Assembly (NCBI RefSeq): GCF_016888135.1
Contig: NZ_JACSWB010000278.1
Location: forward strand, 124,001 to 188,000
Reading direction: 5' to 3'
DNA from: Leptolyngbya sp. CCY15150
GTDB taxonomy: Bacteria > Cyanobacteriota > Cyanobacteriia > RECH01
Length of the DNA stretch: 64,000 nucleotides
The notes under the pieces are model-generated. The model was not told the origin of the DNA and ran no database searches. It saw only the letters and a program-made list of their open reading frames with translations. Shown piece after piece: positions 23,852 to 30,728 of the stretch; position 1 is the stretch's first letter; the number at the start of each line of letters is the position of its first letter. A program made the translations under genes and the position numbers.

Positions 23852-23960
23852 CCTAATGAACCACAGCCATGGGCACTGAACCCCCTGCTATCCGTGACTG
23901 GATAGCTGAGGGGGGAAATGCGGTGGTTCGTTAGGCTGCAAGGACGATATCCGTGCAGCC
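23852..23960. repeat. Nested inverted repeats immediately upstream of the caspase gene
   Basis: Outer arms CCTAATGAACCAC (23852-23864) and GTGGTTCGTTAGG (23923-23935) are inverted copies with 12 of 13 matches. Between them lies a second imperfect stem: CCCCCT and CTATCC against GGATAG and AGGGGG. The 84-base unit thus folds into one long hairpin. A separate hairpin, GGCTGCA (23934-23940) with TGCAGCC (23954-23960), abuts it. The whole block ends 24 bases before the caspase ATG. It could be a MITE-like element, a terminator/attenuator or a leader structure. Confidence 0.75.
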
Positions 23961-23983: not shown

Positions 23984-25927
23984 ATGTCTGGTCGGCGCTT
24001 AGCACTGTTAGTTGGGGTGAGTGATTATGGAGCGGGATACGAGCCGCTGCCAGGCACTTTAGCAGATCTGGCGCAGATGCAAGCTGTATTACAGGATCCC
24101 CATCGCGGCAGTTTTGAGGTAGAGGTTCTACAAAACCCCAATCCGCAACAGCTACGGGAAGCCATTGAACATTTTTTTGGCGGTCGTCGTCGGGATGATG
24201 TCTTACTATTTTACTTTTCTGGTCATGGAGCTTTAGATAATTCTACGGGTAGCCAACTTTACTTGTCTACCTGCCAAACACGTAAGGATGGGCAGCGGCT
24301 GGTAGAATCTAGTGCCGTTGAGGCAGCTTGGCTACATCGTCATTTGATGAGCAGTCGCTCGGATCAAAAAGTTGTGATTCTAGACTGTTGCTTTAGCGGT
24401 GCAGTGGCGAATTTGCTGCAAAAGGGAGATGACTCAATTAACCTCCAGCAGCTTAAAAGTAAAGGAACGGTGTTGTTAGCTTCGTGTAATGCCTATGAGG
24501 TATCGTACCAAGCTAAGGAAAAATCCAGTACCAAGCAGGCGCAATCGCTCTACACCAGATACTTAATTGAAGGTATCCAAACAGGAGCAGCCCGATTGGG
24601 TAAAACAGAATGGATTTATGCCCAAGATCTTCATGACTATGCCAGACAACGCTTTCAAACCGAACTAGCATCGGCACCCGAGCCCCAAATTATTGTGGTA
24701 GAAAAAGAGGGCTATCGGATCCCCATTGCTCGGGCAAGGCTGAAGGATGTAGCTGGAGACTACCGCCAACTGGTGGCCCAGGTTCTCAAAGAAAATGACG
24801 GCGAAATTGATGATCTCGATCGCCACTATCTAGAAGTAGAACGTGCTAACTTAAATGTCCCTAGCGAGCTAGCGGCGCGCATTCTCAAAGAGCAGCAAGA
24901 ACCCTATCGCCTGCGCAAGCGGGAACGGGCTCGCTATTATGCAACCGCCTTGAAAATTGCCCTCAAGCAAGGCTATTTGCTCACCGATCGCGCCCGGACG
25001 AAACTCAAGCGGATTCAGGCGGCGCTGAGTTTACGGGATGACGAGGTGACGATTATTGAGCAGCAGGTGATGACGGAGCTGTCTATGCAAGTGCTAAAAC
25101 CTGCGCGCAAAGCGGTGGCCCACGCCAGTTCTGCCGAGCGGCCCAGTGGCCCTGTGGGGGCTCCTACGGACTTGATGGATCTCAAGGATCTCCATCCGGG
25201 AGATTATGTAGTTCACCAAGGCCATGGCATTGGCCGTTTTTTGCGATCGGAATATTTGACAGAGCAAGGGCGACGCCAGGAATGTGCGGTCTTGGAATTT
25301 GCAGATGGGCTACTGCGGGTGACCGTCGCTGATCTGAATGCCCTGCAGCGCTTGACCTTAGATGGACAGCAAAACCTACCCCTCAGCCAAATCCAAGTCC
25401 TTGCGCCGCCAAGCGGCCTCACCCTGGATCCCCTCCAGTCTAAGAAAGGGGTAGACTATCGCCCCCTGCGCGATCTGCTCCAGGCGGGCAACTGGCAGGC
25501 GGCGGATGATGAAACCTATCGGGTCATGCTCAAATGCGTGGGACGGAAAGAGGGAGACTGGATGCGGGTGGAACAACTGCGGGGGTTTCCCTGCACCGAT
25601 CTGCGCACGATTGATCAACTGTGGACCACCTACAGCCAGGGGCATTTTGGCTTTAGCGTTCAGCAATCGCTGTACCTAGACTGCGGTGCGAAGCTGGATG
25701 GCGACTATCCCGGTGACCAAATCTGGGAGAAGTTTGGCGATCGCGTCGGCTGGCGGGTGAAAAATCGCTGGATCTATTACCAAGATGTGGTCTTTGATCT
25801 AGCGGCCGTGCGCGGACACCTGCCGGCCAAGGCCTGTGTCTTGGTCGGAGTGGTGGATTGGTGGTGCTGGGTGCTGTTTTCCCGCATGGATGCCTGCCAC
25901 ATCTCGGCGAACAGCTCCAAGAGCTAG
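23984..25927 (+). CDS. Caspase-like protease (peptidase C14) with CarD/TRCF-like and GUN4 domains
   Basis: 647 aa from the ATG at 23984; the frame is open earlier but MSGRRLALLVGVSDYG is the usual start of the caspase fold. Residues 5-250: caspase/orthocaspase p20-like domain with His81 (FYFSGHGALD) and Cys136 (VILDCCFSGA). 255-370: helical, charged spacer. 402-460: GDYVVHQGHGIGRFL and a following beta-rich stretch, close to the RNA-polymerase-interacting CarD/Mfd (TRCF) domain. 490-615: GUN4 domain (YRPLRDLLQAGNWQAADDET, then FGFSVQQSLYLDCG and WEKFGDRVGW), which in relatives binds Mg-porphyrins. 616-647 is a tail read from the 243-bp repeat. No signal peptide. Function unknown; combination suggests porphyrin-sensing proteolysis linked to transcription (inference). 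Confidence 0.88.
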   Translation: MSGRRLALLVGVSDYGAGYEPLPGTLADLAQMQAVLQDPHRGSFEVEVLQNPNPQQLREAIEHFFGGRRRDDVLLFYFSGHGALDNSTGSQLYLSTCQTRKDGQRLVESSAVEAAWLHRHLMSSRSDQKVVILDCCFSGAVANLLQKGDDSINLQQLKSKGTVLLASCNAYEVSYQAKEKSSTKQAQSLYTRYLIEGIQTGAARLGKTEWIYAQDLHDYARQRFQTELASAPEPQIIVVEKEGYRIPIARARLKDVAGDYRQLVAQVLKENDGEIDDLDRHYLEVERANLNVPSELAARILKEQQEPYRLRKRERARYYATALKIALKQGYLLTDRARTKLKRIQAALSLRDDEVTIIEQQVMTELSMQVLKPARKAVAHASSAERPSGPVGAPTDLMDLKDLHPGDYVVHQGHGIGRFLRSEYLTEQGRRQECAVLEFADGLLRVTVADLNALQRLTLDGQQNLPLSQIQVLAPPSGLTLDPLQSKKGVDYRPLRDLLQAGNWQAADDETYRVMLKCVGRKEGDWMRVEQLRGFPCTDLRTIDQLWTTYSQGHFGFSVQQSLYLDCGAKLDGDYPGDQIWEKFGDRVGWRVKNRWIYYQDVVFDLAAVRGHLPAKACVLVGVVDWWCWVLFSRMDACHISANSSKS

Positions 25928-26063
25928 GAGTTGCTCTGAGCTAGGGGGATACTCTAGGGACAGGTTCTGAACCTCCATAACCATAGTGCGACGAGCCCAA
26001 CCCCTAGGCGGGATAGATGCGCAGGCGGCGGTTGGGCTCGTCGCCAAAGCTAGAGGATTTGAG
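25821..26063. repeat. 243-bp direct duplication, left copy
   Basis: Nearly identical to 28676-28919 (roughly 95 percent by eye, with a few substitutions and small indels). It starts inside the last codons of the caspase gene and ends with sequence that, in the right copy, encodes the last 20 or so codons of the ycf45 gene on the minus strand (the SFGDEPNRRLRIYPA part). The left copy of that ycf45 end is therefore an orphan fragment. The two copies flank about 2.6 kb. Confidence 0.93.
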
Positions 26064-26404: not shown

Positions 26405-27769
26405 TTGACTAACACAACTTTGGCGACTGCCGATGATCTAGGCATCCTCTCTGGTGCACTCGAAATTTCTAGTACTTTTGAGGGTACCGATCGTCTTGAC
26501 TACTACAGATTTACGCTTGCCCAAAATAGCGATTTAGCCGGATTATTTGAGGCTATCTCTCTCACTGGTCTGCGTATAATTTCCGATCGGAATGAAAACG
26601 GTATTGTTGAGAACAACGAAATTGCTGTTAGAAGCAGCGGTAGCAGCACAGGTGGCTTTACCAGTTTCTTTGCGCCTTTGCCAGCAGGAACCTACTTCCT
26701 TGAAGTATCTACACAGCGATCAGACACTTCTTACGAACTTCGGCTAGCCGAAACGCCTAAACCAAGTAATATTTCTCCCGATCCTGGCAATACCCTCTCC
26801 CAAGCATTCGATCTGGGAATGCTCCCTAGACAACGGATATTGAGAGATTATGTAGGTGACTTAGACCCAGTTGATTACTACACGTTCACCCTGACTCAGA
26901 AAAGTAATTTTGCCTTTGAAGCAAGTGGGCAGACCGCCAATACTACGGTTCTAATCGGTTCTGACCGAAATGGAAACGGCATTTATGACAACGGTGAAAC
27001 AGTTGGGGGCTTCAACTTTGGTGTTGTTAATGGTACTACCTACTCTCAAGATTTGTCAGCCGGAACTTATATTCTCTTCGTGGGACGGAATGCATCAGCG
27101 GCTAATTCGACACACTATACGTTAGCACTAACTACAACTCCCGACTTCAGCGGTGATGACATTCTTCGAGGGACAGCCCGCGCCGATCGCCTCAACGGCC
27201 AAGCTGGGAATGATCGCATTTTTGGCCTCGCCGGAAACGATGTTCTGATTGGCGGCACGGGTAATGATCTATTGCTCGGTGGCCCCGGAAGCGATCGCTT
27301 AGTTGGCGCATCCGGTGATGATATCCTCCGAGGCGGAGCTGACCGTGACACTCTGCTGGGCGGCACAGGCAATGACCAGCTATTCGGTGATGCAGGCAAT
27401 GACATCCTAAACGGCGACGCAGGTAACGATCGCCTCGATGGCGGTTCTGGTAACGATCTCCTTCAGGGTGGATCTGGCAACGATGTCTTAATTGGCGGTA
27501 CAGGAAATGATCGCTTGGATGGAGGAATAGGAAACGACGTCATTACCACAGGGGGTGGACGCGATCGTATTGTTGTACGGCGGCAAGGACGCACCCGCGT
27601 TACTGATTTCCAGAACAACCTGGATAAGTTTGAGCTGATTGGTATCCGGTTTAATCAGCTTTCGTTTGAACAACGACAGGGCGATGTTATCGGCAAGTTG
27701 GGACGAAATACCCTACTTGTTCTTGATAACACACGACTGGCAACCATCGATCGCACAGATTTCGTGTAG
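26405..27769 (+). CDS. PPC-domain and RTX calcium-binding repeat protein
   Basis: 454 aa. No ATG or GTG is available in frame between the upstream stop (26333) and the first domain; TTG at 26405 (MTNTTLATADDLG) is taken as start. Two bacterial pre-peptidase C-terminal (PPC) domains lie at about 10-115 and 130-245, each with the DYYxFTL pattern, followed by a stretch of nonapeptide RTX repeats (GGxGNDxLxG type, about 250-385) that form a calcium-bound beta roll. A short C-terminal secretion-like end follows. There is no enzymatic domain and no N-terminal signal; proteins of this kind leave by type I secretion. The surrounding insert and AT content suggest acquisition. Confidence 0.85.
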   Translation: MTNTTLATADDLGILSGALEISSTFEGTDRLDYYRFTLAQNSDLAGLFEAISLTGLRIISDRNENGIVENNEIAVRSSGSSTGGFTSFFAPLPAGTYFLEVSTQRSDTSYELRLAETPKPSNISPDPGNTLSQAFDLGMLPRQRILRDYVGDLDPVDYYTFTLTQKSNFAFEASGQTANTTVLIGSDRNGNGIYDNGETVGGFNFGVVNGTTYSQDLSAGTYILFVGRNASAANSTHYTLALTTTPDFSGDDILRGTARADRLNGQAGNDRIFGLAGNDVLIGGTGNDLLLGGPGSDRLVGASGDDILRGGADRDTLLGGTGNDQLFGDAGNDILNGDAGNDRLDGGSGNDLLQGGSGNDVLIGGTGNDRLDGGIGNDVITTGGGRDRIVVRRQGRTRVTDFQNNLDKFELIGIRFNQLSFEQRQGDVIGKLGRNTLLVLDNTRLATIDRTDFV

Positions 27770-27834: not shown

Positions 27835-28592
27835 GACAGTTGAAAAGCAGCTATTGAAGGGGCTGCGGTGCCGCGAGTGCTCGATCTGACATAAGTGTTT
27901 GAGCTGCTCATTGACCGCCTCATCATTGAGACGGTCAATGAGCAGCAACACCTTATTCAGCAGTAGCACAAGCGCCTGCGAAATGTATCCTCAATTGCCA
28001 AACAGTTTGCCGACTAGGTCTTGGGTCATCTCCGGCACCGGCGGCTTGCGGTCGTCGGTATTGCCCGGCGTCAGGCTCGCTGCCAGCAGTTCGCCCCGCT
28101 CATTAATATCAGGTAGAGCTTGAATCCGAAGTGCCATCCCATCGATGATTTGCCCCAGCCCGCTAGATGTTTGAACGTCTTGTGTGCCTTCGCCCGCTTC
28201 ACATGACAGACTGCAATCGAGGTGGAATCAATGAAGCTGATGCCGGTCATGACCCCAAAACAGTGGCTATTGAGGACATGTACCAAGGCTATAAAGCTCC
28301 AAGGCATCAGCTCGATGAATCGCCCATAGCTGAACATGGGAAAGGCATCCTGCCAATGTACCAACACTAAGTGTTGGTAAAAAATCTTGCACGTTCAATA
28401 GCCTGAGCTATGGAAGGCAATGACGATGGTCATCACTTCGCTGATACTCAAACGGGACTGATAAGCTTTTCGGCGAGTCATCGCACGGCAGTTGAGCCAC
28501 GTCTCGCTCACAGAATTGCTCTAACTCACGATAGACATCATCAACATCGCAGAACATTTGGGTCACGCAAGGCGCGCTAAACTTAGAGTCAT
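27835..28592 (-). pseudogene. Decayed IS982-family transposase
   Basis: On the minus strand, fragments in different frames line up with IS982 transposases: MFCDVDDVYRELEQFCERD near the start (28592 side), then SRLSISEVMTIVIAFHSSGY, then MFSYGRFIELMPWSFIALV, GISFIDSTSIAVCHVKRA and GKSSMGWHFGFKLYLI, then GELLAASLTPGNTDDRK, VGKLFGN, and finally IEHSRHRSPFN near 27840. At least two frameshifts and several stops interrupt it, so it is inactive. Two catalytic aspartates (IDST, NTDD) are still readable. Boundaries are approximate and I could not identify terminal inverted repeats. Confidence 0.85.
27903..27946. repeat. 20-bp inverted repeat inside the IS982 relic
   Basis: GCTGCTCATTGACCGCCTCA (27903-27922) and TGAGACGGTCAATGAGCAGC (27927-27946) are inverted copies with a single mismatch and a 4-base loop. 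On the transposase strand it falls where the frame reads LLLIDRLNDEAVNEQL. Such a near-perfect palindrome is unusual inside coding sequence and probably arose by templated mutation in the dead gene. Confidence 0.8.
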
Positions 28593-28859
28593 GGCTGAGG
28601 TGCTTGATATTTCAATACTTTGTGAGCGTAACCCTCAGCCTTTTCTTTTGCACTCTAATTCTTGCCGAACTCGCGTGCCGCCCAAGGCCTGTGTCTTGGT
28701 CGGAGTGGTGGATTGGTGGTGCTGGGTGCTGTTTTCCCGCATGGATGCCTGCCACATTTCTGCGAACGGCTCCAAGAGTTAAGAGTTGCTCTGAGCTAGG
28801 GGATGCTCTAGGGACAGGTTCTGAACCTCCATAACCATAGTGCGGCATATGCCCAACCC

Positions 28860-30728
<1,869 letters not shown>

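Follow-up and report, generated by a model that had tools for sequence, protein, structure and literature searches.

A single reading frame in the window (the whole stretch of DNA analysed here, 64,000 nucleotides long) raises the question of whether a caspase-like protease, an RNA-polymerase-interacting domain (RID) and a GUN4 domain truly belong to one polypeptide, and what a protease of such composition might act on. An earlier note, made from the sequence, had placed the frame at 23984–25927, with His81 and Cys136 as the catalytic pair and three domains on one chain. All of this was confirmed. Pfam analysis of the 647-aa chain located Peptidase_C14 (C14) at residues 4–232, CarD_TRCF_RID at 403–457 and GUN4 at 486–617, and AlphaFold2 combined with Foldseek independently recovered a caspase fold, a barrel as in the Mfd RID and a GUN4 fold. 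A fourth part was added to the domain list, a helical linker at about residues 256–370. In the AlphaFold2 model, the joints at residues 373–395 and 473–480 are disordered. The gene and its leader are as follows.

23984–25927, plus strand: whole gene, in the order C14, helical linker, RID, GUN4; 647 aa, stop included
23881–23960, plus strand: 5' leader with two hairpins (23881–23914 and 23934–23960), z −3.3

The leader hairpins are stable, lie directly 5' of the start codon and are largely kept across three species; a comparison with Rfam revealed no match to a known regulatory RNA. In-frame codons 5' of 23984 reach an alternative ATG at 23918. Since this ATG sits in the structured leader between the two hairpins, the start at 23984 is the likelier one.

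Full-length orthologues with 95–96% identity are present in two more species of the genus, one of them the metagenome-assembled genome Leptolyngbya sp. DLM2.Bin15. Synteny is common to the three species: a gene for a thioredoxin reductase (NTR)–thioredoxin fusion lies upstream and, in convergent orientation, a SpoIIIAA/R3H-type (Ycf45-like) gene lies downstream. The earlier note had pointed to a frameshift as a way in which separate genes might appear joined. Such a frameshift or assembly error was ruled out and has a negligible probability, because three separately assembled species agree both in synteny and in an intact frame of ~647 aa. Pairwise dN/dS among the three species was 0.04–0.07 for C14, 0.12–0.13 for the linker, 0.10–0.18 for the RID and 0.03–0.04 for GUN4, at dS values of 0.20–0.56. 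Every domain is therefore under purifying selection (0.03–0.18), and the fusion is maintained as one protein. In each of the three species, GC3 steps from 0.41–0.45 in C14 to 0.63–0.71 in GUN4, a hint, though no proof, that the gene was pieced together from parts with separate histories. No gene in the neighbourhood of the fusion indicates a pathway at this locus.

The 3' end of the gene takes part in a direct repeat of about 245 bp (window positions 25821–26063 and 28676–28919, 95–100% identical in its pieces), which duplicates the last ~35 codons of the fusion gene together with the 3' end of the convergent Ycf45-like gene. The 2.6 kb between the copies hold an RTX-repeat ORF (26405–27769) and a transposase remnant (28071–28367); this insert and the second repeat copy are missing from the other two species.

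The caspase half and its relatives

23993–24679, plus strand: Peptidase_C14 (orthocaspase) domain, residues 4–232, Pfam E 1.3e-21
24224–24226, plus strand: catalytic His81 (SGHG), invariant in 29 relatives
24389–24391, plus strand: catalytic Cys136 (LDCCFSG), invariant in 29 relatives
24749–25093, plus strand: helical linker domain, residues 256–370, from the AlphaFold2 model, common to C14 relatives with differing C-terminal modules

Asp134 is likewise invariant in the 29 C14 relatives; standing two residues before Cys136, it presumably fits a basic P1 residue, by analogy with metacaspases. The C14 fold matches MALT1 and metacaspases (Foldseek), and the domain passes the NCBIfam model NF047832, 'caspase, EACC1-associated type', with 154.5 bits against a cut-off of 140. 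With its intact His-Cys dyad and caspase fold, the protein is, judged by its sequence, an orthocaspase of the active (catalytically competent) type and a putative protease. Orthocaspases cleave after basic residues (PMC6426788).

The linker matched no Pfam family. At E <= 1e-62, relatives of the C14-linker part, 37–52% identical, occur in 36 of the 390 genomes sampled from the class, and they carry different C-terminal modules: GUN4, FGE-sulfatase, CobW GTPase, periplasmic-binding protein or membrane segments. As the C-terminal module is evidently swapped on this scaffold, we regard the fusion as a C14-GUN4 orthocaspase that gained an RID. N-terminal C14 and C-terminal GUN4 do share its chain, an architecture already described for 29 of 473 cyanobacterial orthocaspases (PMC8283722); hence the novelty lies in the RID. 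A C14-GUN4 paralogue is encoded elsewhere in the same genome (L072, G000:C170).

Two of the relatives are unusual in themselves. In L085 (region G251:C3:3210358-3211458), C14-linker carries a whole CobW/G3E GTPase (cobW and CobW_C), an uncommon orthocaspase cargo. The GUN4 part of a C14-linker-GUN4 relative, L099 (region G114:C1:360600-361721), continues in another frame, and this gene is therefore either broken or affected by a sequencing error.

A search for the same domain order, as the earlier note had proposed, found the triple fusion in only one genus among the 390 sampled genomes of the class. In the order that holds the nearest C14 relative (G264, 52%), the GUN4 matches in 42 genomes began only after the RID, and there was no fusion. 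Plasmids, searched with tblastn and blastn, contained either the C14 or the GUN4 half or nothing, with no fusion; viral contigs, searched with exact peptide seeds only, gave no match at all. Exact seeds run against the contigs of other genomes returned only the known orthologue. When the RID segment served as query, the matches listed outside the genus (to E ~1e-13) looked like the Mfd, or an Mfd-like helicase, of the respective genome. The fusion had been thought undescribed, and we found no description: none of the papers searched combines C14, RID and GUN4, and CarD is absent from the orthocaspase surveys consulted, including the text of PMC8283722, in which 35 accessory domains are counted.

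Per-genome counts of RID matches revealed extra copies only in the genera g24 and g140. The extra CarD-like matches in genomes of f23/g24 were considered as fusions and rejected, as they are Mfd-like helicases. These genomes (G143, G157, G198, G212; L060-L071, L082) hold up to four extra Mfd-like helicases of ~1,116–1,127 aa beside a normal Mfd; their RIDs are diverged, and they lie mostly on small contigs, possibly plasmids.

An RNA-polymerase-interacting domain of predicted Mfd type

25190–25354, plus strand: CarD_TRCF_RID, predicted Mfd type, residues 403–457, the unit extending to about residue 472; Pfam E 1.9e-10
25256–25258, plus strand: Leu425, at the position of E. coli Mfd Leu499 in alignments that include a solved-structure alignment

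The earlier note had called a CarD/Mfd-type segment and tied its validity to a significant CarD/TRCF match at residues 400–460. The match at 403–457 is significant (41.1 bits, cut-off 23), so the domain is real. Its type could be narrowed: the best Foldseek match of the predicted RID is Mfd in the RNA polymerase elongation complex 6x2f (E 5e-5), and Mfd RIDs rank ahead of CarD/CdnL (2lqk, 4l5g). With PF02559 above cut-off, a Tudor-like fold nearest to Mfd and a leucine at the Leu499 position, the RID is, as modelled, of Mfd type. CarD proper was rejected, the predicted fold being closer to Mfd. PF02559 itself has a wider reach. A PcrA/UvrD-type helicase of the same genome (L073, G000:C207:38141-38254) has a C-terminal Tudor domain that scores 23.4 bits, just over the cut-off; consequently, not all PF02559 matches are Mfd or CarD.

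Compared with cyanobacterial Mfd RIDs, the RID shows 44–58% identity in most cases (41–47% to diverged copies) and retains the positions that are invariant among them. Its core, LHPGDYVVHQGHGIGRFLRSEYLTEQGRRQ, is identical in the three species. The genome's own Mfd would be a candidate source of the RID; its identity is only 44%, against mostly 45–58% for Mfds of other cyanobacteria, and most forks of the 65-column tree are weak. In E. coli Mfd, the substitution L499R abolishes RpoB binding (PMC6320318, PMC5910403), and Mfd needs residues I117-K118-E119 of the beta subunit (PMC5910403). The host RpoB reads GEIKEQEV and keeps I-K-E. The tethering to transcription that the earlier note had read from the domain is accordingly a fair reading, given Leu425 and the host I-K-E.

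The fusion RIDs nevertheless group together with good support, and their stem branch is long, with 1.46 changes per site compared with ~0.0–0.3 for most Mfd RIDs. Among the changes are REY(L)V to QEC(A)V and the replacement of a hydrophobic residue by Ser422. With such a stem and such changed residues, binding may have changed; other partners are also bound by Tudor-like folds (PMC5397179). The RID might then have lost RNA polymerase binding altogether and act solely as a structural spacer or protein–protein module between protease and GUN4. The long branch and the altered residues beside the Leu499 position argue for this, whereas purifying selection, the identical core and the retained Mfd-invariant positions argue against it, and we consider such a loss somewhat unlikely. 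The reading that we tentatively prefer, and hold to be quite possible, is an orthocaspase docked on RNA polymerase whose cargo is an Mfd-type RID and a GUN4-paralogue module that switches the protease. In its favour we count the Mfd-like fold of the RID, Leu425 and the I-K-E of the host RpoB, and against it the long RID stem and the distribution within one genus. Judging from the fusion, the Mfd RID may be transferable to a protease as an independent docking unit. In Synechocystis, deletion of a pseudo-orthocaspase raised Mfd protein (PMC7889975), an observation with no direct bearing on the fusion.

The GUN4 domain and its ligand site

25439–25834, plus strand: GUN4 core, residues 486–617, Pfam E 1.3e-40; solved GUN4 1z3x matched at E 1.7e-23 and by Foldseek at 3.6e-8
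25835–25924, plus strand: C-terminal tail after GHLP, hydrophobic, ending in LFSRMDACHIS and replacing the canonical LxNxLR ligand loop

The earlier note had read the domain as a porphyrin sensor, so that GUN4 would bind protoporphyrin or Mg-protoporphyrin and switch a caspase tethered to RNA polymerase. The core does match GUN4 strongly in sequence and fold, including the porphyrin-bound structures 4xkb and 4xkc, and is highly constrained (dN/dS 0.03); moreover, tetrapyrrole-gated allostery has been proposed for GUN4 fusions in general (PMC7159879). The ligand site, however, points the other way. The true GUN4 encoded in this genome reads GHLPLTNQLRGVR, with LxNxLR, and the fusion reads GHLPAKACVLVGVV at the same region: GHLPLTNQLR stands against GHLPAKACVL, so that AKACVL replaces the motif. 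The canonical ligand-site residues Asn211, Arg214 and Phe196 are all gone from the fusion (Phe196 is replaced by Val) and kept in the true GUN4. Cyanobacterial GUN4 paralogues have lost LxNxLR, a loss tied to that of bilin binding, and none of those studied keeps the Asn (PMC10156173). In Chlamydomonas GUN4 this Asn is required for bilin, yet the N219G exchange removes bilin and spares porphyrin binding (PMC10156173). Taken together, a porphyrin gate is distinctly unlikely, and this part of the earlier claim was not supported. The fusion GUN4 seems to be of paralogue type by its residues, lacking the tetrapyrrole signature; tetrapyrrole sensing by it is possible, without support at the residue level. 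This cautions against taking every GUN4 domain in a signalling protein for a porphyrin sensor.

Akin to most GUN4-paralogue domains, that of the fusion ends in a short C-terminal motif, which the true GUN4 does not have; this motif could be a ligand or partner site. In the paralogue tails (L072, L076, L078, L084, L089, L110-L139), GHLP is followed by a variable, Gly/Trp-rich hydrophobic stretch. R-x(2-3)-C occurs near the C-terminus in 23 of 34 such tails, and SRxDL at the very end in six of the 34.

The GUN4 part with its tail (window positions 25412–25900) scores 151 bits against the PADLOC model PD-T4-6, over the C-terminal third of that model. The model therefore appears to contain GUN4 and may over-call in cyanobacteria. 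The caspase domain matches a PADLOC caspase model.

Possible modes of action and likeness to known systems

What we infer for the fusion is that it docks on RNA polymerase and is active as a protease, as well as its trigger and its effect. In the docked-protease reading, the RID would attach the protein to the cellular RNA polymerase at the beta protrusion, and the GUN4-like module would receive a signal from a ligand or partner, probably not Mg-protoporphyrin. The caspase would then cut after basic residues, either in proteins at the transcription complex or in its own disordered joint at ~373–395. Self-cleavage there would release the RID-GUN4 half on RNA polymerase. What follows might be a response of the stress, cell-death or conflict type that acts on transcription. 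If docked, the fusion would imply that a protease of the cell-death type can be directed to the transcription machinery, and an orthocaspase with an RNA polymerase address label would offer a concrete partner in the largely open matter of cyanobacterial orthocaspase targets.

Cleavage of the linker could also be the whole of the activity: with no other target, the caspase would free RID-GUN4 to compete on RNA polymerase with Mfd or CarD-like factors. For caspases that pass the EACC1-associated model, as this C14 domain does, auto-proteolytic deployment of effectors has been proposed (PMC7159879). The joint KPARKAVAHASSAERPSG, basic and disordered, falls right between the protease and its cargo, a part exchanged among relatives. 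On the other hand, the defining EACC1 partner gene is absent from the adjoining position, and a free RID would be small, with a putative effect on RNA polymerase. We judge such release unlikely.

A bolder form of the docked-protease reading is that the caspase, brought to RNA polymerase by a captured Mfd RID, guards the transcription machinery, a stalled, modified or hijacked polymerase together with a non-tetrapyrrole GUN4-like input leading to proteolysis and cell death. This too is improbable at present. To our knowledge, no bacterial caspase homologue has been tied directly and physically to RNA polymerase, and the guard reading, if true, would provide the first such tie. Alternatively, the RID may serve as an integrated decoy or guard: as bait or sensor, it would be engaged when phage or stress alters the beta protrusion or Mfd-like proteins, and this engagement would fire a cell-death protease. 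Proposed conflict systems repeatedly contain C14 and GUN4 modules (PMC7159879, PMC8195603), both modules of the fusion have their PADLOC matches, and the RID diverged fast and was then conserved. No defence neighbourhood surrounds the locus, however, and the RID dN/dS is low rather than indicative of positive selection, which makes a decoy doubtful, and clearly improbable in our view.

Known systems share parts of this design. With domain D4/RID of Mfd/TRCF, the fusion has in common PF02559, the Tudor-like barrel and the Leu499 equivalent; unlike Mfd, it contains no RecG-like SF2 translocase, UvrB-homology or other Mfd domains (Pfam, NCBIfam) and carries the RID in a protease. CarD/CdnL shows the RID fold at its N-terminus, with a match weaker than that of Mfd, but there a C-terminal helical DNA-binding domain follows, which the fusion replaces by GUN4. 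GUN4, the Mg-chelatase cofactor of the chlorophyll pathway (Synechocystis sll0558, PDB 1y6i/4xkb), is alike in its core fold, whereas the fusion lacks LxNxLR, Phe196 and the canonical N-terminal part and ends in a tail of paralogue type. EACC1-type caspases combine a constant part with exchangeable C-terminal effectors, for which auto-proteolytic release was suggested (PMC7159879). The two-gene conflict systems in which they act resemble the fusion in the constant caspase with a variable C-terminal module, and the fusion passes NF047832. These systems have an adjacent 5' EACC1 single-TM gene, but the 5' neighbour of the fusion gene is the thioredoxin reductase–thioredoxin gene, with no ORF of at least 80 aa in between; since the partner gene is missing, we do not class the fusion gene as an EACC1 system. 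The cyanobacterial C14-GUN4 orthocaspases (PMC2853523, PMC8283722; e.g., L072, and L084 of G264) differ from the fusion in that none of those examined has an RID between linker and GUN4. They share with it the same C14 domain and dyad, the linker and a GUN4-type domain, with 36–51% identity over C14-linker and 43–49% over GUN4.
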